In this document: positions 117-11,019 of the stretch, in pieces
Layout of the letters: every line of letters starts with the position of its first letter
Position numbering within the stretch: the stretch's first letter is position 1
DNA from: a virus
Virus record (IMG/VR): IMGVR_UViG_3300042691_000982
Location: 1-20,328 of that record
Length of the DNA: 20,328 bases
Direction: 5' to 3' (one strand)
Program-made: the position numbers and the translations under genes
Notes under the pieces: model-generated
Seen by the model: the letters and a program-made list of their open reading frames with translations, nothing else
The model's database searches: none
Told to the model about the DNA's origin: nothing

Positions 117-1010
117 ATGAGTAACGAAATTAGTTTGTTTCAACAAGCAGTACCCGACTACATTAAAGAAGCCGGTGTAGATGAGTTAACCCGTTCGCTA
201 GGTGGCGGCGGTGGTAGCAAGCGCATATCCATTCGTGGTTCTGTATTTCGTATGATGGTGGGCGGCGAGGAGATTGCCAAGAACGAAAGCCGTTCCATGA
301 ACATTGTAATTGTAAATGGAACCAAGCACGTAGCACGTAAGTTCTATGCCGGTAAGTATGTAGCCGGTGAATCAGCACCTCCTGATTGCTGGTCTAATGA
401 CGGCATCGCTCCTGATGCAAGTGTAGAAAGCCCACAAGGCCCAAATTGCGATAACTGCCCACAGAACATTAAGGGTTCAGGCAATGGCGATTCGCGTGCG
501 TGCCGGTACGAAAAACGTTTGGCAGTTGTATTAGCCGACGACATCAAAGGTAGTGTTTATCAATTGTTGCTCCCATCAAAGTCCTATTTCGGCAAAGGCG
601 ACATCGACAAGATGCCGTTTGAGCAGTACGCCAAATACGTTGCTTCACAGGGATACAACATCAATATGATTGTCACCGAAATGAAGTTTGACTCGGACAG
701 CGACAATCCCAAGTTGACCTTCAAGCCTATTGGTTTCCTCTCCAAGGAACAGTGGGAAGTAGCAAAACAGCAAGGTGCAACCTTGGATGCAAAACAAGCA
801 ATCGTAATGACTGCCTCACAATCAGATGCAAAACTGAAAGCAATTGCCGCTCCGGTAGCATCTACTGTGAATAAAGCCGAAGTAAAAGCAGAGGCCGAAG
901 CAGCGGTTCCTGAGCCAACCAAAAAAGTTTCTAAGAAGGCTGCGGAGGCGCCGACTGAGAAAAAAGATCTCGCTGAAATTATGGGCAACTGGGCTACGGA
1001 TGACGAGTAA
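117..1010 (+). CDS. Putative phage single-strand DNA-binding protein with four-cysteine motif
   Basis: This 297-residue protein probably coats single-stranded DNA during replication or recombination. Directly visible are a Gly-rich turn at residues 29-33 followed by a beta-rich core (about 36-75); four cysteines at 91, 111, 114 and 129 (C-x19-C-x2-C-x14-C) that could hold a zinc ion; a second beta-rich section (about 135-210); a low-complexity Ala/Lys/Glu/Pro linker (about 232-282); and a short acidic tail ending in NWATDDE. A flexible linker plus an acidic aromatic-containing tip is the usual C-terminus of bacterial SSB and phage gp2.5/gp32-type proteins, where it recruits partners. The position just ahead of the primase-helicase supports this role. 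The cysteine pattern is one I recall from unnamed phage proteins. The function is inference. A zinc-dependent recombination cofactor is the main alternative. Confidence 0.6.
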   Translation: MSNEISLFQQAVPDYIKEAGVDELTRSLGGGGGSKRISIRGSVFRMMVGGEEIAKNESRSMNIVIVNGTKHVARKFYAGKYVAGESAPPDCWSNDGIAPDASVESPQGPNCDNCPQNIKGSGNGDSRACRYEKRLAVVLADDIKGSVYQLLLPSKSYFGKGDIDKMPFEQYAKYVASQGYNINMIVTEMKFDSDSDNPKLTFKPIGFLSKEQWEVAKQQGATLDAKQAIVMTASQSDAKLKAIAAPVASTVNKAEVKAEAEAAVPEPTKKVSKKAAEAPTEKKDLAEIMGNWATDDE

Positions 1011-1255
1011 TGACGGACAGTCGTGGTTACAGTTCTCGAATTGTTAAGGCGAATAAAGAAGCCAGTACAGAAAACCTCGGTGTAGCGTTGGGGCGACTGT
1101 GCATTGCTAAAGAAATCCCTGTGTCTGATGTTTCTACTTACTTTGGGGTAAGCCGAATGACCATATACAAATGGTTTAAGGGTTTAGAAATACCAAGGCA
1201 GAAACAAATTGCAAGGATTGAAGAAGTTTTGGCAAAGGCTAAATTTAGCGTTTAG
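1010..1255 (+). CDS. Small helix-turn-helix DNA-binding protein
   Basis: This 81-residue protein is built around one helix-turn-helix. Residues about 37-58 read PVSDVSTYFGVSRMTIYKWF, with the GVSRMTIYKW recognition-helix pattern typical of XRE/MerR/homeodomain-like phage regulators. The flanks are short and basic, and there is no effector or dimerisation domain. Its ATG overlaps the stop of the gene before it by one base (TAATG at 1008-1012), and it has no clear Shine-Dalgarno, so it is probably translated by re-initiation. It lies directly before a leader full of inverted repeats, so it may bind there and control the primase gene. That is a guess from position. It could instead act as an architectural or replication-initiator protein. 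Confidence 0.75.
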   Translation: MTDSRGYSSRIVKANKEASTENLGVALGRLCIAKEIPVSDVSTYFGVSRMTIYKWFKGLEIPRQKQIARIEEVLAKAKFSV

Positions 1256-1261
1256 TAACAC

Positions 1262-1340
1262 GGGCATCTAGTTCGACGGAACGAAAAGGGGTTAATCGCC
1301 GCAACCCCCTGATGCCCTTTCTTTTCTGCGGCGCAAGGGC
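1262..1340 (+). promoter_or_regulatory. Candidate structured mRNA leader of the primase-helicase gene (nested stems, possible pseudoknot)
   Basis: The 90 bases between the helix-turn-helix gene and the primase contain several exact inverted repeats. The outer stem is GGGCATC (1262-1268) with GATGCCC (1311-1317). Inside it are a small hairpin GTTC/GAAC (1271-1274/1279-1282) and a hairpin GGGGTT/AACCCC (1288-1293/1303-1308). The loop of the last hairpin holds CGCCGC (1297-1302), which is exactly complementary to GCGGCG at 1328-1333. An alternative stem GCCCTT (1314-1319) with AAGGGC (1335-1340) would break the outer stem and hide the Shine-Dalgarno AAGGG. This arrangement could switch translation of the downstream gene, or serve as a protein-binding operator. 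I do not recognise a known riboswitch class. The base pairs are read directly; the function is inference. Confidence 0.45.
1335..1339 (+). promoter_or_regulatory. Ribosome binding site AAGGG for the primase-helicase
   Basis: AAGGG ends six bases before the ATG at 1346 and is the only purine-rich match near this start. It is also one arm of the alternative stem with 1314-1319, so the leader fold may decide whether it is accessible. Confidence 0.55.
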
Positions 1341-1345
1341 GGCAA

Positions 1346-4168
1346 ATGGCAACTACAGAATTACTGTCGGCGGTGCTTCCATCCGAAGGATGGTATTGCA
1401 TTGTTGGGCTAAAGGCGGGGAATAAGCCAAGACAGACATTCCATGAGACATTGGATGAATGCGAGCAAGCAATTGCTGGCTTGATGGAAGACGAATATAA
1501 CGCATACTTTGCATGCTCAAAGTACGAGACAAACAAATCACGCACGCAACCAAACGCCAAGTACATCAAAGCCTTTTGGCTAGACATTGATTGCGGTGAA
1601 GGCAAAGACTATCCTAGCCAAGGTGAAGGTCTTGCCGCGCTTAAAAACTTTTGTAAGGCAACAGGACTACCTAAGCCGACAGTTGTTAACTCGGGGCGGG
1701 GGCTGCATATCTACTGGCGACTTAGCAGAACTATCACTGCTGAGGAGTGGAAGCCCGTTGCCGAACGCATCAAGTATCTTTGCGAAGAATACGATTTCCA
1801 TGTTGACCCGTCGCGCACAGCAGACTTAGCCTCGATACTTAGGGTTCCTGAGACTCTAAACTTTAAGGATGACCCGCCTAAGCCTGTATCTATTATTTGC
1901 TTATCAGATGAAATAGAGTACGAAACAGTTAAGTCCCAACTCGGTGTTCTTGTTGCGCCTCCTGAGTTTAATGTACCGAGGCAAGAACTAAATGAATTGA
2001 CTAAAGCCCTTGCTAATAACGAAGAGAAGTGGTTCAAGATAATTATTAAAAAGACTATCAAGGGCGAAGGATGCGCTCAGATACATAAGATAGCGACAGA
2101 GCAAGAGACAGTTAACTATGAGTTATGGCGTGCAGGGCTGTCGGTAGCGTGGGCATGCGAGGATAGAGACACAGCCATCCATAAGATCTCAGAGCGCCAT
2201 CAGGAATATGATTTCCAAGAGACTATCCGCAAGGCTATGGATACCGGTGGCCCACAGAAGTGTGTCACGTTTGAGAAATGGAACCCTAGTGGGTGTGAGG
2301 GTTGCTCCCATAAAGGCAAGATAGTTGGGCCGATTGCGTTGGGGCGCAAGATTGTCAAAGCCCGTGCCGAGGATAACTTTGTCGAAGTAGAGGCAAAGTC
2401 CCCCGAGGTGCCGGTTACAAAGATCACAATCCCCGAATACCCCTTTCCTTACTTTAGAGGCAAGCAGGGCGGCGTCTATATTGAAATCGCGGATAACGAC
2501 CCCATATTAGTTTATCAGCACGACCTTTATGTGGTTAAGCGGATGAGAGATCCACAGAAAGGGGAGGTCGCTTGGATTAGATTGCACCTACCAAAAGATG
2601 GAATTAAAGAGTTTGCGTTGCCGATTACAGAGGTAATGACCAAAGAAAAGTTACGGGAGAAGTTAGGATTTTATGGCGTTGCAGCATTACAAAAGCAGAT
2701 GGATGCCATCATGGTGTACATCATTAAGTTTGTTAACGAATTACAGTACAAAACTGACGTGGAGGTAATGAGAATGCAGTACGGATGGGCAGACAAAAAT
2801 AGCAAATTCGTTGTTGGAGACCAAGAGATAACGGCGGAAGGTATTAAATATAGCCCCCCTTCTTCAATGACCTCGGCGTTGTCAGAGTACATGCAGCCGG
2901 TTGGCACGTTAGACGAATGGAAAAAGATAGCGAATGTGTACAACCGCCCCAGTATGGAGCCGCATGCGTTCGGGTTTTTCACGGCGTTTGGATCTCCGCT
3001 TTTGACACACCTGAACCTAAAAGGCGCGGTTATAAACCTAGTCAACAATGTATCGGGAACAGGTAAAACAACGGTAGCCAAGGTTATGCACAGCGTCTAC
3101 GGACACCCCGAGGAACAGATGCTTATTGCTAAAGACACCATAAACGTCAAGTTGCATAGGATGGGCGTGATGGGTAACTTGCCAATTAGTTGTGACGAGA
3201 TAACTAACGTAGAGGCAGAGCACTTTTCTGACTTTGTCTACGCCGTGTCGCAAGGCCGTGCCCGTAACCGCATGAAGTCTCAGTCTAACGAAGAGCGGCT
3301 TAACACATCAAAGTGGTCTTTACTGTGCGTGTGTACTTCTAACGCATCCTTTTATGACAAGTTGGCGTCGCTGAAATCGACCCCTGATGGCGAGTTAATG
3401 CGGTTAATTGAGTTTCAAATACCTGTTAATAGCGTCATGAACAAGGTCGAAGCCGACGAGATATTTAGCCAATTAGACAATAACTACGGGCACGCAGGGC
3501 GCATTTACCTGCAATGGCTAGTATCAAACCTTGAAGAAGCCATAGATATGGTCAAGCAGATACAGGTTGTTATCGACAAAAAGGTTAAATTTAGTGGACG
3601 TGAGCGGTTTTGGTCAGGTGTTGCCGCCTGTAATATTGCGGGAGCCATGATTGCTAAGAAACTTGGACTGATTGACATTGATATTAAAAGGGTTTTTGAG
3701 TGGATGGTTGTTGAGTTTTCTAAGATGCGTCACGAGATTAAGGCACCTCCTACAAACCAAGCCAGCACGATAGGCGAGTTCTTAAATGAGTTCCGTGGGA
3801 GCATCCTTGTTATTAACGACGCCGCCGACAAGCGCTCAGGTATGGCCCAGTTGCCGATTGTAGAGCCGAAGTTTGACCTGCTTGCACGGATAGAGCCAGA
3901 CACTAAGAAGTTATTTATCAGTGCCAAGCACCTACGGCAGTTCTGTACCAAGAACCAGATCACACTTAAGGATGTATTAAATACTTTAGCCGCCGAGGGC
4001 ATATACGAAAAGACAGTTAAAAAGCGTATGGCTAAGGGCACCAAGATTGAGGGGCTACCTACGGATGCCTTTATGTTTGACTGCTCCAAGGGGGACTTTA
4101 TTAATACCGAGGACTATGTTGAGTCACTAAAACCCGCCGACGATGAGAGTCCACGGCCTGTCGTTTGA
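1346..4168 (+). CDS. Bifunctional primase-helicase (archaeo-eukaryotic-type primase fused to a DUF927-like helicase)
   Basis: This 940-residue replication protein probably lays primers and unwinds DNA at the phage fork. Residues about 1-190 look like an archaeo-eukaryotic primase core: metal-binding DID at 80-82 (WLDIDCGEG), then SGRGLHIYW at 116-124, then VDPSRTADLASILRVPET at 153-170 with further acidic residues. Cysteines at 306, 317 and 320 with His322 form a possible small zinc site. The C-terminal half holds an ATPase: the P-loop VSGTGKTT ends at residue 576 with Lys574, and ISCDEI (614-619) is a likely Walker B. The P-loop has Asn where the first glycine of the classical pattern sits, as I recall for DUF927-type ATPases. 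Such fusions replace separate DnaG- and DnaB-type proteins in phages and plasmids. It starts after the structured leader and overlaps the next gene by 26 bases. Confidence 0.85.
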   Translation: MATTELLSAVLPSEGWYCIVGLKAGNKPRQTFHETLDECEQAIAGLMEDEYNAYFACSKYETNKSRTQPNAKYIKAFWLDIDCGEGKDYPSQGEGLAALKNFCKATGLPKPTVVNSGRGLHIYWRLSRTITAEEWKPVAERIKYLCEEYDFHVDPSRTADLASILRVPETLNFKDDPPKPVSIICLSDEIEYETVKSQLGVLVAPPEFNVPRQELNELTKALANNEEKWFKIIIKKTIKGEGCAQIHKIATEQETVNYELWRAGLSVAWACEDRDTAIHKISERHQEYDFQETIRKAMDTGGPQKCVTFEKWNPSGCEGCSHKGKIVGPIALGRKIVKARAEDNFVEVEAKSPEVPVTKITIPEYPFPYFRGKQGGVYIEIADNDPILVYQHDLYVVKRMRDPQKGEVAWIRLHLPKDGIKEFALPITEVMTKEKLREKLGFYGVAALQKQMDAIMVYIIKFVNELQYKTDVEVMRMQYGWADKNSKFVVGDQEITAEGIKYSPPSSMTSALSEYMQPVGTLDEWKKIANVYNRPSMEPHAFGFFTAFGSPLLTHLNLKGAVINLVNNVSGTGKTTVAKVMHSVYGHPEEQMLIAKDTINVKLHRMGVMGNLPISCDEITNVEAEHFSDFVYAVSQGRARNRMKSQSNEERLNTSKWSLLCVCTSNASFYDKLASLKSTPDGELMRLIEFQIPVNSVMNKVEADEIFSQLDNNYGHAGRIYLQWLVSNLEEAIDMVKQIQVVIDKKVKFSGRERFWSGVAACNIAGAMIAKKLGLIDIDIKRVFEWMVVEFSKMRHEIKAPPTNQASTIGEFLNEFRGSILVINDAADKRSGMAQLPIVEPKFDLLARIEPDTKKLFISAKHLRQFCTKNQITLKDVLNTLAAEGIYEKTVKKRMAKGTKIEGLPTDAFMFDCSKGDFINTEDYVESLKPADDESPRPVV

Positions 4169-4417: not shown

Positions 4418-4445
4418 ACCCCCGCCCAGCGCGGGGGTCTTTTTT
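4418..4445 (+). terminator. Rho-independent terminator of the rightward replication operon
   Basis: ACCCCCGC (4418-4425) pairs with GCGGGGGT (4431-4438) around a five-base loop, followed by CTTTTTT (4439-4445). The GC-rich stem plus T tract is a textbook intrinsic terminator for + strand transcripts. It reaches the stop codon of the converging - strand gene at 4444-4446. Read on the - strand the stem is followed by TGCAAGG, not a T tract, so it should not stop leftward transcripts efficiently. Confidence 0.9.
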
Positions 4446-7400
4446 AGGCTTCGTCCCCGTAGTACCCCATATCCTCAAGGGCGCCCATCAAGTTTTTATT
4501 GATAGGTATGCCGCCGGTTAGGCTGGCTAAGGCACGGGACTTATATCGAGTCGTTACAGACTTCATTAAAGTGTCGCCCAAAATAGGGTATGTCGGATGT
4601 GTGCGGTTAAACAAACTAATTTTGTCAATAACTCGGTCAGTAAAGTCTGAATCTTGGGTATCAATAGACATAAAGAAAGCGTTCATCAAATCCTGCCGCT
4701 TATTAATGATGTCCTGCTCCATTGATTTCTTCTCAATGTTAGACTTTTGCCGCTGTGCAACACGCTCAGGTGAGAACCCAAGTGATTGGGCAAGCGCATC
4801 TTTCCCACTAATATCATCTACTAATTCATCACCTTTGAGGGTAAGAACTCCTTCTGTAGCGTAGCGCATGCCGACCAATGGCTGCTTTAACACGGCAGGC
4901 ATAATCTTTTCAGCGCCGCGATAATAGTATCCATCGTTGTAAAGTTTTAGTGCTTCAGCAGCGCTTATGCCTAGGCTTGCAGTCGGCCCAAGTAAATTAA
5001 TAAGCATGTTTTGGAAAGCGGTAACTTCGTCTTGGCTCTTACGGGCATCACGGAACCAAAGGTCATTTAGGCTCATACGATCTGCAATGTTTAAACCTGT
5101 AGCCTGCGTGACAACCCCACGGGATATAGAGTCGCCCCAGAAGTTGCCAAATGTCTCTGCCATCCAGTTCTTAAACCAATTCTCAAAGTCAAGCGGCGGC
5201 TCATCCTCATCTGAGAATGCCGCGTGTAAGGCTTCAATTGTGGCTGCGCCGACTGAGAATAGCGGCATGCCGGTTGCACCTGCAATTAAGAACGTCATCC
5301 CTAAAGTGCCAAGTATACGACCCCGGCCTTCTTTAACAATACGATCTACCTCAGCATCAATTTGTTTCTCTAGTTCTTCAGGTGTAACAGGGGTAGGTAA
5401 TCCGTAGTTAGCACGCTCAATTTCTAAAGAACTACGTACTTCTTCACGCAGTTCTGGATTACTTTTAGAGAACCATTCATATGCACTACGACCTAAAAGA
5501 TAAGTTGTGTGCTGTGGGAACTGTTTAAATTGTAGGATAACTTTGGCGTAAGCGTTTTGTAGATAGCGGGGCTTATTAAGCGTAGAGTAATCAAACATTG
5601 ACCGGTAAGTTAAATCCTTTGCCTCATCTACCGCTTTGTTAAACGCATTAAGATCAGACATACCTTTCTTTTTAGCGGCTGCATACGACAGTCTAAATGC
5701 ACTCATAGCCATAACTTCACGGTTAAACCGCTCGGCGTGGTGGAACATAAAACTGCTCCAGCGCATGATTGTGCTCATCTTGCCGGTGTACATATTAGAT
5801 GGAGAGTCAGCCAGTCCTGCTAAATCATATGCTTGAGTAATATCAATCAGCCCACTAGCCGAAAAAGCATCGTATGCACGTTGCTCTACTGCGTTTAGTT
5901 TCGAACCCATTTTAAGTGAGGGCATAGCAAATTTGCCATTTGCGTCTTTAAAACCTGAACGCATAAAACTCATTCCCATACTAGCCAACATGGCTGCGGC
6001 GTCTACTTTCCCAAAGCGAGAAGCAAGAACAGGCAATCCAAACGCAGGTACACCCAACATGTTTACCAAGGCCGAAGCAGGTGCCGTGAGATACCATAAA
6101 AACGACACGTTAGATAGGACAGTAGGTATTGTCCCTGTGTCTGTAGGATTCATCACGTAATCAAGTCGGCGGCGCAGTTCGTTTAGGTAGTCCCCATCAA
6201 CTTTAGGGTTTCCCTCGTTGTTTGCTATGTTTGCTTTTTGTACTTCGTCAGCAGCATTTAACTGATCAAACATTTGCCGAGAATATTTAAAACGCGCATG
6301 CTGATATGCCATGTGGGAAGACGTATCGGAGAATGCCCGCAGCATATCCTTTGACGCTCCAGAAACTCCTTTACGATGGATAAAGTTCTTTCTAAGGCTT
6401 CTGTTTGGCAACGTCATTAAGTATAGTTCTTGCACGCCGTCTTTAATTGCGTTCCGTAACGTATCTACTTGGTTGCCTGCTTGTTTATAATTTACATACG
6501 TCCCGTTTAATAGTTTGTCACTAGCGCTATCGACAATGTCGTTTATTGTTTTTAGGGCAGTCACATTTTGTAGGCTTGTAAGGTCAGCCGTGCGTAAACT
6601 ATTCCCCTGCCCAATTTTTGTATTACCTTGTTGCTCAAATAATTTAAATGCTGAGTTACGTTCAGCCGCAGTATCAAATTTATAAAAACCTGCATCGGGG
6701 CCTTGACCAACATTAATCCAGAATTGCCCAAAACGAGCCAAAGGAAAATATGGGCCTACTAATCCTTTTCTAAACTCTTTTTCAACTTCGCTAAGTTTTT
6801 GCCTAATTTCAGCATCTGGCAGTCCGCTGGCAACTAAAGACAATTTAATATTGTTAAGTAGGGTCTCTAAATATGAATCCATCCTACGGACATAAAAATT
6901 ACGAACTTCGCGGTAGACTTCTTTGGCTTCTGGGCTAAGAGCATCCCATGCCTTGTCTAATTTATAGTCTTTACCTTTTTGCGTATCAGGGTCAATACCT
7001 AGTAGAGTTGCCTCAATCATTACTTCAGACAACTTATCGCTTTCTTTAGAGTCTTTGTTTTGGAGTTTTGACCATTTGTCTGTTGTAGATTTAGCCTCAT
7101 TAACAATCTTGTTATGCTCTTCAAGCATACCTTCAACACTAAGAATAAAGTTTTTAGGTGCTTGCCCCAAACGAGTACCAACTAAATCTTGAAGTTGGCG
7201 AAGCGTAAAGGCTCCTAAAAAATATTTACGTGTAGTGTCTGCTACATTTTCAAGCATTTGAGAAACGCCATTCTTAGCCTCTTGCCATGTTGGGCGGTTC
7301 AAAGCAGCATTTAACATGCGCCGGGGTATGCTTTGATCTGGAGGTAGTGGAGACGTTTTAAAGGTGCCGCCCATTACGCTCTTAGGTGCAGACGCATTAA

Positions 7401-10400
7401 GAGTGCCATCCAACATACCGGGAGAACCACGAGAAACTGTAGCAGACATAAGAACGTCGGCATTGGCAAGTGTTGCCGCCAGCACGTTATCTTTGTTGCC
7501 GCCAAGTAAATCTACAATAAATTTAACAAATGTAGACCACAGGTTTTTATCTGTGTTTTGGTACTTTAGATCACGCAGTAAACTTTGAAACTCCATATTG
7601 GAGAAAGCCTCGGCTACAAACTCATCAAGGTTTTTAAACCCGTATTGATATACAGCCGGATAATTTTTTAGCGTATATTCGTAAAGGTTTTCTAATTTAC
7701 TTAATGCTACTTTTTGTGCGGTATTTAATTCGTTTTTATTACGAATAGCATTAGATGTAGCAGCATGTATTGTTTCGTGGAAAAGCCCATACAGCGACAA
7801 TCCACCTTTTGCTTTGTTAAGGTTGATTACATCTTGCTCAATAAAATAAGTACCAAGACTAGTTAATGCTGGCACTACTTCTTTGTATTTACCTAAAACT
7901 CTTTCGTACAATAGGTTGTCATTAGTTAGTATCGACGGAATTAGGTTATCGTCTTTAACCTTTTGTAACGCCGCCAACATTTGAACTGGGTTATTAGCGT
8001 TCCCCCTGAAGTATTTGTTATAAACGTCAGGGTACAGAAGTTGCATGTTGTCCATTAGTCGGGTGGTGCTTAACTGAACTTTCTGTAACTCTATCTCTAC
8101 AAGTATCCGTTGCTGATTAAACCCAATAGACGTAGGCAAATTAAGTTCACGCAAGCGGCTTGCTAACGCCGACCAGTAGGTATTAGCCCTAGGCATCTGC
8201 CTAATTAAATCTAAAGCAAGGTTTAAATCGTTATTCTCAACCGCTTGCTGCACAGCAGGGTGCATTAACTCAAGGCTCTTCTCTAAAAATCTAGACTCTA
8301 GCGTGGTTTCCCGTAGCGCTTTTTGGATTTCTTCTTCGCTTTTGTTTAAAGCCTTTTTTAGTTCTTTAATTTTTTGGCGATACTGAACTAACTTTTGTGT
8401 ATTGCCGTATGCCCGTCGTTTGTCGTAGCGGTATGTTTCTACAGTCCGATCAAACTTTTCTACTTCAGAAGCAGGGAAATTTTCTTCAATGTATTTTCTA
8501 AATAGTTCTGCTTGCTTAGCACCTTGCCCCGAGAACATCTCACCGGGAGGAGTTTGGCTGACAATATCAAACGCCGCCGAACGCATAGCCACGCCATAAT
8601 TCCACCGACTAAAGTAGGCAAAGGCCGCATTTTCTTCAGGGGTTCGACCTCTAGGCGACAATATTTTTAACCGAGCAAGAATATTACTAACCCGCTTTGG
8701 GATTCTAGTATCAGTGGCAAAGGTATTTAATGCCGCTTGTTCTTCTGTGTATCCAAGTTGCTCGGTCTTCTTACGAGCCATAAAATCATTAAACTCTTGC
8801 CGTAACTGACTTACACCCCCTAGACGAGTAAGGTCAGGCATCCGGGTGCGTGACCCAAGGATCTGTTTTTGTTGCGCTGGGTTCTTGTTTTTAATTTCGT
8901 TGATTACATTTTCCGCAGTTTTGGGGTCATCTGTAATCGAATATTGATCAAAAAACTCATTAATTAGTTGACGGTTTTCGCCACGTTCTTGAGCATCAGC
9001 CGTGTTTATGTACTCATTGATGTCGTCAATAAAGTTTTTTATGGCTGATTTAAAATTATTTACGCCTTGTTCTGCTTCTGCAATTGGGTTAATGCTTCGT
9101 AAGAAATCTATTGCGTTACGCCCTGTCTTTGTAAACATATTTAATGGGGCACCTTGCGTTGCAGCAGGGGCTTCTATGTCTACTTCACCGGGAGCCACAC
9201 CGGGTGGGCGCTCTAATTTAAACTCGGCTGCGCCTAATTCAATCAATGAAGGTGGTAGATTGCGCTCAACTTCGCCTTCAGATTGGCTTACGTCAAACCC
9301 AAGTTGTTCACCGGATGGGGCAAATAATGCCGATTGTGGTTTAGCCCTATCAAAAGCGGTTTGTAACCGTGTTTTCTCTTCTGGCGTAATTGCATTATCA
9401 ATATCGTCTTGAGTTACGGGACGAAGCACGTTATTAAAAAGTACTTCACCATTTGCAACCCGTCTTAAAGTTTCCTTTGTTTTGGGGCCTGTGCTTAGGG
9501 GTTTAGCGCTCGCAAGTATATTGTCAGCGTCATTAGCACCATACCCAGCGGCAAGAAGGTCTTCTTTTGTAACAGCCTTTTCTTGGTCTGTTAACTTAAA
9601 TACTTGGCGTGGCCCACCATATTGGCGAGGAGCCTCGGCATCAAGCGCAGTCGGCTTAGCACTTTCTGTTAACGTCCGCCGAATCTCTCGCTCACGTACT
9701 TGTAAGTCTTGTGCAGCCAAAGAAAATTGATCTGCTCTTTCAGGGTCGCTATCTCGTAGATTCTTTGCCTCACCTTGAAGTTCTGCGATTTGTGTAAGTA
9801 GTTCTTTACGCTCATCGTCAAGGGCTAACCGTTGCTCATCCGTAATGGTTGTTTTAGTTTCAGGTGGGGCTGGCGGTGGTGGAGGTGGGGGCGGAACTAT
9901 ATTAGCGGGTGGCGCAGCAGATGTTTCTTCTTCTGTTTCTCCAGCATCTAATTGATCAAACGTATTTTTGCCCGTAGCAAGTTCTTTCTTTGGCGCAGCA
10001 GGTCGGCCTTCTACAAACCCTTTAACTCCACCAGCAATACCAGAAATACCGCCACCGCCTACAGCACCACGCACGCCAGACTCAACTAGCCGATTAAATT
10101 CTTTGCTACCCCAGACTTCAGGGTTTTCCTGTACAAACTTCTCGGCTGCGATACTAATGGCTTCTTGTGCAGCCTCAGTTGGCCCTTCTGTAGCAACACC
10201 GGTAAGGGCGCCAGCCGTAACTCCACGGGCAATACCGGGAGCCATACCTGATTTTTCTAATAACTTTTCTACAACCCCCATCTTCATACCGGGGGTAAAC
10301 TGTCGCACTAAGTAGGCAGGCAGAATTGAGTCAAGTGCAGCCGCCACAGAACCGGCTAAGACGGAAGCGCCCACCTCCATCTGACCAGTTTCCTCAAAGA

Positions 10401-11019
10401 TATTCTGGAAGACTTCAGGAGCGTTAAGAGCGTAGGAACCTAGGAAGGCACCAGCCCCACCGCCGTAAGCCGCGCCTTGAGCGCCTTTAAGTGCAGCGTA
10501 CCGCGCACTCGCTTCAGTTGCTTCCCGTGCTCCCAAGGTTTTAGCCGCTTGCCCAGCCGCCATACGGGCACCAATAGCAGCGCCACCTGCGCCGGGAACT
10601 ACGGCTGTAGCAAGATTGGGTATTTGTTCGGCAACGGTCTCGGCGATAAACGGCAGTACGTCACCAAGCCCTTTTACATCCGATAGTTGCCCATAGCGGG
10701 CAGCATACTTCTGAGCAATCTCTTTCTGCGTTTCTTCAGCCTCAGCCATCTGACGGGCAGCGTACTCATCAGCGCCGACAGCCTTAGCCGCCATAGCAGG
10801 TAGCACATCCGCAAGAAGAGACCCAGTCTGTTTAGCGCCACGCACAACGGCGCGACCCGTCATATCAAAGAACCCTGTGTCTTTAACTGGCTCTGCCTCT
10901 TTAGGCATCCCCTCGCCTGAAACCTGCCGAATGTAATCGGCTAAACGCTTTGCATCTTCAACATTTCCAGCAGCGTCGGCTTTACGAAGGGCATCATAAA
11001 TTTGATTTAGGTCAGCCAT
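4444..11019 (-). CDS. Giant polyvalent virion protein with metallopeptidase (HExxH) and PLxRFG motifs, probable ejected internal protein
   Basis: At 2191 residues this is by far the largest protein here. Visible in order: a charged N-terminus; several Gly/Ala-rich hydrophobic stretches (about 125-330) suited to membrane insertion; a proline run at about 374-385; long charged helical sections; HETIH at 1081-1085 with DEFVAEAF at 1132-1139, which together look like a zinc metallopeptidase (third ligand perhaps Glu1133 or Glu1137); PLARFG at 1426-1431, matching the PLxRFG motif of phage polyvalent proteins; and hydrophobic segments near 1637-1670 and 1898-1934. By analogy with T7 gp16 and similar proteins it may be packaged in the head and injected with the DNA, forming a channel and cutting a host protein. 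The start overlaps the stop before it by one base (TAATG) and has no Shine-Dalgarno, so coupling is likely. The family call is good; the injected role is inference. Confidence 0.75.
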   Translation of the reverse strand: MADLNQIYDALRKADAAGNVEDAKRLADYIRQVSGEGMPKEAEPVKDTGFFDMTGRAVVRGAKQTGSLLADVLPAMAAKAVGADEYAARQMAEAEETQKEIAQKYAARYGQLSDVKGLGDVLPFIAETVAEQIPNLATAVVPGAGGAAIGARMAAGQAAKTLGAREATEASARYAALKGAQGAAYGGGAGAFLGSYALNAPEVFQNIFEETGQMEVGASVLAGSVAAALDSILPAYLVRQFTPGMKMGVVEKLLEKSGMAPGIARGVTAGALTGVATEGPTEAAQEAISIAAEKFVQENPEVWGSKEFNRLVESGVRGAVGGGGISGIAGGVKGFVEGRPAAPKKELATGKNTFDQLDAGETEEETSAAPPANIVPPPPPPPPAPPETKTTITDEQRLALDDERKELLTQIAELQGEAKNLRDSDPERADQFSLAAQDLQVREREIRRTLTESAKPTALDAEAPRQYGGPRQVFKLTDQEKAVTKEDLLAAGYGANDADNILASAKPLSTGPKTKETLRRVANGEVLFNNVLRPVTQDDIDNAITPEEKTRLQTAFDRAKPQSALFAPSGEQLGFDVSQSEGEVERNLPPSLIELGAAEFKLERPPGVAPGEVDIEAPAATQGAPLNMFTKTGRNAIDFLRSINPIAEAEQGVNNFKSAIKNFIDDINEYINTADAQERGENRQLINEFFDQYSITDDPKTAENVINEIKNKNPAQQKQILGSRTRMPDLTRLGGVSQLRQEFNDFMARKKTEQLGYTEEQAALNTFATDTRIPKRVSNILARLKILSPRGRTPEENAAFAYFSRWNYGVAMRSAAFDIVSQTPPGEMFSGQGAKQAELFRKYIEENFPASEVEKFDRTVETYRYDKRRAYGNTQKLVQYRQKIKELKKALNKSEEEIQKALRETTLESRFLEKSLELMHPAVQQAVENNDLNLALDLIRQMPRANTYWSALASRLRELNLPTSIGFNQQRILVEIELQKVQLSTTRLMDNMQLLYPDVYNKYFRGNANNPVQMLAALQKVKDDNLIPSILTNDNLLYERVLGKYKEVVPALTSLGTYFIEQDVINLNKAKGGLSLYGLFHETIHAATSNAIRNKNELNTAQKVALSKLENLYEYTLKNYPAVYQYGFKNLDEFVAEAFSNMEFQSLLRDLKYQNTDKNLWSTFVKFIVDLLGGNKDNVLAATLANADVLMSATVSRGSPGMLDGTLNASAPKSVMGGTFKTSPLPPDQSIPRRMLNAALNRPTWQEAKNGVSQMLENVADTTRKYFLGAFTLRQLQDLVGTRLGQAPKNFILSVEGMLEEHNKIVNEAKSTTDKWSKLQNKDSKESDKLSEVMIEATLLGIDPDTQKGKDYKLDKAWDALSPEAKEVYREVRNFYVRRMDSYLETLLNNIKLSLVASGLPDAEIRQKLSEVEKEFRKGLVGPYFPLARFGQFWINVGQGPDAGFYKFDTAAERNSAFKLFEQQGNTKIGQGNSLRTADLTSLQNVTALKTINDIVDSASDKLLNGTYVNYKQAGNQVDTLRNAIKDGVQELYLMTLPNRSLRKNFIHRKGVSGASKDMLRAFSDTSSHMAYQHARFKYSRQMFDQLNAADEVQKANIANNEGNPKVDGDYLNELRRRLDYVMNPTDTGTIPTVLSNVSFLWYLTAPASALVNMLGVPAFGLPVLASRFGKVDAAAMLASMGMSFMRSGFKDANGKFAMPSLKMGSKLNAVEQRAYDAFSASGLIDITQAYDLAGLADSPSNMYTGKMSTIMRWSSFMFHHAERFNREVMAMSAFRLSYAAAKKKGMSDLNAFNKAVDEAKDLTYRSMFDYSTLNKPRYLQNAYAKVILQFKQFPQHTTYLLGRSAYEWFSKSNPELREEVRSSLEIERANYGLPTPVTPEELEKQIDAEVDRIVKEGRGRILGTLGMTFLIAGATGMPLFSVGAATIEALHAAFSDEDEPPLDFENWFKNWMAETFGNFWGDSISRGVVTQATGLNIADRMSLNDLWFRDARKSQDEVTAFQNMLINLLGPTASLGISAAEALKLYNDGYYYRGAEKIMPAVLKQPLVGMRYATEGVLTLKGDELVDDISGKDALAQSLGFSPERVAQRQKSNIEKKSMEQDIINKRQDLMNAFFMSIDTQDSDFTDRVIDKISLFNRTHPTYPILGDTLMKSVTTRYKSRALASLTGGIPINKNLMGALEDMGYYGDEA

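Follow-up and report, generated by a model that had tools for sequence, protein, structure and literature searches.

The leader of a primase–helicase gene in a 20,328-base virus record (IMGVR_UViG_3300042691_000982, here called the window) is an int-alpA RNA of Rfam family RF02996. Comparison with its relatives suggests, with a probability that we put at about 0.72, that this RNA is a portable antisense-loop module that would repress translation of the adjacent gene and would resemble C4 and P4 CI RNA in its working. Specifically, an int-alpA RNA in a phage operon would fold into an outer stem around two hairpins, the second of which would present an antisense loop. This loop would pair with a target directly 3′ of the element (T1) and with a second one, T2, at the ribosome site of the gene that follows, and the ribosome-site pairing would repress translation of that gene, here the primase–helicase. 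Sequence comparisons across the family establish a folded core, complementarity of the loop to both T1 and T2 with evident co-evolution, a hairpin at the ribosome-binding site (RBS), placement within operons and independence from the identity of the downstream gene.

The element occupies a 90-nt gap (1256-1345) between the stop codon of a helix-turn-helix (HTH) gene and the primase ATG (Table 1). Every pairing that a sequence-only reading had described in this gap was located there, including the outer stem (GGGCATC at 1262-1268 with GATGCCC at 1311-1317), both hairpins and the match of loop CGCCGC (1297-1302) to GCGGCG (1328-1333), which lengthens to 7 bp (1297-1303/1327-1333). A competing stem proposed in the same reading (GCCCTT at 1314-1319 with AAGGGC at 1335-1340) is likewise present in the window. 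The predicted minimum free energy (MFE) fold of the leader contains the outer stem and both hairpins; its energy shows no extra stability relative to dinucleotide shuffles (z −0.14), so that the fold is unproven from the single sequence. That it is real follows instead from the match to RF02996 and from covariation among relatives.

Table 1. Coordinates of the leader and its flanking genes in the window
Feature	Position	Strand	Remarks
HTH gene, upstream	1010..1255	+	In relatives that lack the element, stop codon adjoins primase start
Rfam RF02996 int-alpA RNA match, whole model 1-71	1261..1331	+	47.1 bits; gathering score 35.8
Three-helix core: outer stem 1262-1268/1311-1317 around hairpins 1 and 2	1262..1317	+	Conserved, covarying pairs in 94 elements
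Hairpin 1, surroundings conserved (CUAG..CGACGG..CGAAAAG)	1271..1282	+	From sequence and covariation
Hairpin 2, bearing the variable antisense loop	1288..1308	+	
Antisense loop CGCCGCA	1297..1303	+	−13.9 kcal/mol with T1
U-rich spacer UUUCUUUUC, 3′ of outer stem	1318..1326	+	Terminator-like in part of the RF02996 family
Target T1, UGCGGCG, 7 bp with loop	1327..1333	+	
Weak Shine-Dalgarno hairpin UGCGGC(GCAAGG)GCGGCA, one G-G mismatch	1327..1344	+	Predicted fold; T1 is the 5′ arm in the window's clade
Shine-Dalgarno AAGGG	1335..1339	+	
Target T2, GCGGC, second loop match, 5 bp, between Shine-Dalgarno and start codon	1339..1343	+	−11.3 kcal/mol
Primase-helicase (DUF927; phrog_25314/8841), putatively regulated gene	1346..4168	+	

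With respect to class, the leader had not been recognised from its letters, and an Rfam scan assigned it to RF02996: positions 1261-1331 score 47.1 bits against a cut-off of 35.8 (E 4e-7) over the full length of the covariance model (1-71). The window element shares with the family the outer stem, hairpins 1 and 2, the conserved CUAG, CGACGG, CGAAAAG and CUG motifs and a U-rich tail. The family name, which we take to record a location between int and alpA that the model presumably leaves unscored, does not describe the window, where the element lies between the HTH gene and the DUF927 primase and is followed by the latter rather than by alpA. Location has no bearing on membership, since the next gene spans 72 families. 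The source description of RF02996 is said to be that of Weinberg et al. (2017, NAR). In a literature search of which that description was not part, RF02996 went unmentioned and 'int-alpA' appeared only in a presence/absence list. Rfam types the family as 'sRNA' and names no target; its model ends within T1, and the pairing of the loop with T1 and T2 as well as the RBS hairpin lie across or beyond the model limits. The results presented here on loop–T1 pairing, on loop–T2 pairing with the RBS hairpin and on portability are thus in excess of Rfam's description.

Relatives were collected by scanning viral contigs with the pattern CTAGNNCGACN{2,7}CGAAAAG and by pattern-scanning bacterial genomes likewise, which yielded 150 distinct elements after structural parsing. 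As the virus contigs are redundant, non-redundancy was set by loop sequence or by downstream-gene family. The Rfam cut-off was passed by 10 of 12 viral loci tested. Hairpin 1, whose arms were unconstrained by the search pattern, has two free positions, which are paired in 93 and 92, respectively, of the 94 non-redundant elements; all four Watson–Crick types occur there. The pairs of the outer stem and of hairpin 2 also vary widely in the same 94 elements, both stems being parser conditions. Among 299 genomes sampled from one bacterial phylum, at least 47 carry RF02996 above cut-off, at up to six places each, and control by this RNA would therefore be common. Scoring was restricted to a few candidates in each genome, which makes the tally a minimum. 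E. coli genomes searched with two Acinetobacter-type queries gave no match, and a search of GenBank for close phage relatives of the window gave none either. In seven loci (L271, L272, L274, L276, L284, L287 and L292) the top-scoring int-alpA copies lie ~0.8-1.5 kb from a tRNA gene, a proximity expected if the copies adjoin an integrase at a tRNA attachment site.

Evidence for the antisense role of hairpin 2 comes from the relationship between its loop and T1. The loops vary greatly among elements, and most match a T1 3′ of the element that starts mostly 5-13 nt (median 8) past the outer stem; some elements have weak targets. Many loops are anti-Shine-Dalgarno-like, and the controls therefore combined each loop with T1 regions taken from elsewhere in the set. 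In 64 elements the longest Watson–Crick run between loop and T1 averages 5.75 for own pairs and 3.72 for swapped pairs (sd 0.12), with none of 1000 swaps above 4.14. Duplex energies, computed for one element per downstream-gene family (n=73), average −9.06 kcal/mol for own and −5.29 for swapped pairs (sd 0.23), the best of 20,000 permutations reaching −6.16. In a held-out set of 40 loci located by the Rfam model alone, the run is again longer for own pairs (5.88) than for swapped ones (4.42, sd 0.17). When 33 elements whose loops are 9 nt long were analysed as a pair matrix in fixed register, the peak was no more than modest (z 3.4); spacer length varies and flattens such a matrix, which is why register-free swap tests were used. 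Chance or sequence bias, whereby GC-rich or Shine-Dalgarno-like words match by accident, might be suspected from the ordinary MFE of the window leader and from the anti-Shine-Dalgarno-like loops. This reading is refuted by the swap controls, which preserve such bias and were exceeded by ~16-17 standard deviations, with the excess recurring in held-out data. Loop and target are in fact the most variable part of the element, a pattern that marks an antisense interaction rather than a single ligand or protein product.

The same relationship is seen at the locus of the window itself. A primase alignment search supplied more leaders from the identical HTH–primase gap, of which 31 orthologous ones, with primases about 36-100% identical to that of the window, were compared. 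In all 31, a loop of the form GCC[G/A]-x pairs with its own T1, and one loop–T1 position has undergone compensatory change (A-U in 18 leaders, C-G in 13). The L369 leader has an A-U pair where the remaining leaders have G-C or G-U, and is otherwise near-identical to that of L343. Pairs were counted after anchoring, because MAFFT alignments of the orthologs displace T1 by one column. Compensatory changes are thus found in homologous leaders, both at hairpin 1 of the 94 elements and across these 31, and together with the swap controls this covariation bears out the earlier suggestion that the leader is structured and regulatory and that its second loop pairs beside the Shine-Dalgarno.

The element also behaves as a module that is gained or lost as a unit, being present, reduced or absent at the same locus. 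Seven variant leaders (L326, L327, L330, L332, L333, L344 and L354, in each case just upstream of position 1201) are missing hairpin 1 and the conserved core, and keep a single hairpin, a GCCGC-type loop and the Shine-Dalgarno site, with a U-run and T1 in most. Some close primase relatives carry no RNA element at all, the HTH stop adjoining the primase ATG, and RF02996 had no match anywhere in the records searched for four such contigs. More distant primase relatives (46% identity, e.g. L387 and L398) have, in this position, simple hairpins that look like terminators.

At the ribosome site, the loop finds a second match, T2, at the Shine-Dalgarno or start codon (run 4.61 own, 3.90 swapped, sd 0.11). 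Part of this signal is generic, because many loops are anti-Shine-Dalgarno-like, a bias for which the swap control allows. In 71 of 94 loci a hairpin with a Shine-Dalgarno-like core in its loop lies between T1 and the start codon. Arms of at least 5 bp are found in 50%, compared with 11% in shuffles, and the mean MFE z is −1.51, compared with −0.12 in a control region inside the gene. The loop of this RBS hairpin matches that of the element (4.53 own, 3.30 swapped, sd 0.095), and since most family members have T2 inside the loop of the Shine-Dalgarno hairpin, the two would meet loop to loop. The competing stem of the sequence-only reading, by comparison, was rejected as a regulatory switch, as it is unconserved across relatives (3.60 bp own, 3.44 swapped, sd 0.08). 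Of the idea that two exclusive folds toggle the ribosome site, the part that survives is a possible exchange between loop–T1 and loop–T2 pairing, and the part that falls is the particular stem put forward for it.

That pairing represses rather than activates is something we infer by analogy with the C4 and P4 CI systems. In the window the RBS hairpin is weak and has T1 as its 5′ arm (1327-1344), which makes it a compressed variant of the family arrangement. With T1 in an arm of the RBS hairpin in this clade, T1 pairing could open the Shine-Dalgarno and activate instead, and the T2 match of the clade, at just 5 bp, is a counterpoint to the repression model.

The genes that follow the element are of no one kind. 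Their proteins fall into 72 unrelated families and include DUF927 primases, HNH and GIY-YIG endonucleases, replication initiators, Rha, Dam and an integrase. Of the 94 non-redundant loci, 77 have a same-strand gene ahead of the element; the element typically lies within ~10 nt of the upstream stop codon, and mostly within a few tens of bases of it; the start codon lies at a median of 33 nt past the outer stem. In Acinetobacter phage TRS1 (KX268652; L269 2437-3109) and phage qsb1 (L270 2501-3228), int-alpA lies in the late structural operon, where it is flanked by the tail-terminator and major-tail genes, precedes Rha/AntB-type regulator genes and has a terminator-like hairpin on its 5′ side.

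This diversity bears directly on whether the leader could be a cis-only operator or riboswitch, in which a fixed loop–T1 pseudoknot is the receptor for a ligand or a protein (HTH, primase) that toggles the Shine-Dalgarno. The narrow T1 spacing would suit such a receptor, as would strong conservation of the CUAG/CGACGG/CGAAAAG core. No common metabolite or autogenous product fits 72 unrelated downstream families, however; the loop is free to change provided that T1 follows, and L326-L333 and L344 retain hairpin, loop, U-run and T1 without hairpin 1 and the core. We accordingly consider this explanation unlikely. Two familiar forms, both raised by the sequence-only reading, are likewise unsupported. 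Against a riboswitch, as a conserved aptamer before genes of one pathway, stand the 72 families and the fact that loop and target are what varies most; against an autogenous operator of the T4 gene 32 type, the element precedes unrelated genes and is absent from close primase relatives.

The U-rich tract after the outer stem raises two further possibilities. At least 5 T in 9 positions follow the stem in 44% of the family, compared with 4% in the control. One possibility is a plain terminator or attenuator, in which stem and U-run curb read-through and the loop complementarity is secondary. The tract itself and the terminator-like hairpins of the 46%-identity primase relatives speak for it, yet more than half of the elements are without a T-rich tract, and neither the co-evolution of the loop with T1 and the RBS nor the RBS hairpin would be needed for termination, so that we find it very doubtful. 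A terminator scan of the window, limited to short loops, did not list the element, after whose stem the U-rich UUUCUUUUC follows. Elsewhere in the window, at 4418-4438 (+) in the gap between convergent gene blocks, is a strong hairpin resembling an intrinsic terminator, with 7 GC pairs among its 8 and followed by CTTTTTT.

The second possibility is the trans form of the antisense explanation, namely an immunity RNA in the strict C4/CI sense that is cut out or terminated at the U-run and silences incoming phages bearing the same T1/T2. C4 (PMC5320573) and P4 CI (PMC4825925) act in this way, and the U-rich tract and the diversification of loops inside one clade are consistent with it. So are orphan elements with an intact loop and no target, in Acinetobacter phage qsb1 and the prophages L051/L059, whose loops match T1/T2 of related Rha leaders; the orphans are near-identical, however, and may be recent recombinants. 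Also against a trans RNA, 77 of 94 elements lie behind a same-strand gene, there is no promoter-like site by the element in the window, most elements are missing a clean U-run, and a fixed short T1 spacing is unneeded for trans action. The -10-like words directly upstream of elements show a weak rise that is likewise expected at a gene end. This strict form is conceivable, though less probable than not. For the antisense module in general, we infer action either within one transcript, as a pseudoknot, or in trans after processing or U-run termination, and its purpose would be low expression of replication or cargo genes, or superinfection immunity.

A more elaborate version, which we put forward tentatively and think rather improbable as a whole, would unite these features. 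One loop would address both a T1 decoy in its own transcript and the T2 Shine-Dalgarno loop of the gene beside it; copies that are terminated or processed would repress in trans, whereas read-through copies would have their loop occupied by T1. Joint change of loop and targets would then create private addresses, or immunity types. The system would be a second, separate invention of the C4/CI type, usable on any cargo gene and widespread in phages and integrated elements.

C4 antisense RNA is processed by RNase P and acts in trans. C4 (P1/P7, RF01695), P4 CI and int-alpA have in common an outer stem around two hairpins with antisense sequence in the loops, and replication or antirepressor genes among their targets. 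The c4 RNA pairs around the ant ribosome site (PMC12197685, PMC5320573), and the corresponding feature of int-alpA is the complementarity of its loop to the ribosome-site region of the putatively regulated gene. For P4 CI the two complementary sites with which it pairs are seqA and seqC (PMC4825925), and int-alpA shares with it the possession of two target sites per antisense. The two types nonetheless differ: int-alpA lacks the long outer stem of C4 and has other conserved bases, a single loop serves its two sites, which are located 3′ of the element, one of them in the RBS hairpin. Rfam lists int-alpA without a clan and places C4 in clan CL00128. The RF01695 model gave no match up to E 5 in window positions 1200-1400, whereas phage P4 CI scores 74.9 bits against it. 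With a working that would be C4-like but no match to the C4 model, int-alpA was not filed as a C4 member. Upstream of CI in phage P4, L123 8615-8705 (-) matches isrK, with c4-a1b1 slightly below cut-off; both are target-side parts of C4-type systems.

Other phage leaders offer partial parallels. In T4, the gene 32 protein binds a pseudoknot in its own leader, 67 nt 5′ of the start codon (PMC3014915), and that operator shares with the window a leader pseudoknot before a phage replication gene. Unlike gene 32, the int-alpA module is common to 72 unrelated genes, and its pseudoknot partner ends at the ribosome site. In the phage homing endonucleases I-TevI and mobE, RBS-sequestering hairpins damp translation (PMC3014915), so that RNA is again placed at the ribosome site of cargo genes, as with the HNH and GIY-YIG genes that follow int-alpA. 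Those are simple hairpins, whereas in the int-alpA family the Shine-Dalgarno lies in a loop that is matched by a separate structured RNA.

The comparative signal offers a concrete and easily testable function for RF02996, a family to which no role has been assigned, and makes the target predictable for each genome from sequence alone. It also suggests that RNA control of phage genes in the manner of C4 and CI may extend beyond the P1 and P4 cases, and the natural matched pairs of loop and target could act as separate translational controllers.

Individual loci add further detail. Two elements in L302 (711-777 and 1403-1469), 692 nt apart, have near-identical loops and targets and similar gene starts downstream, and are a duplicated element-plus-gene unit. 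In L301, two RF02996 copies (1851-1918 and 3591-3658) within 2.5 kb of a complete one are without a matching T1 or start site and are orphan or decayed. In the window itself, positions 4444-11019 (-) encode a 2191-aa protein that matches DarB-like antirestriction and unnamed large-protein families, with a weak virion RNA polymerase profile match and an LPD39 domain, and that is probably a large polyvalent or internal virion protein.
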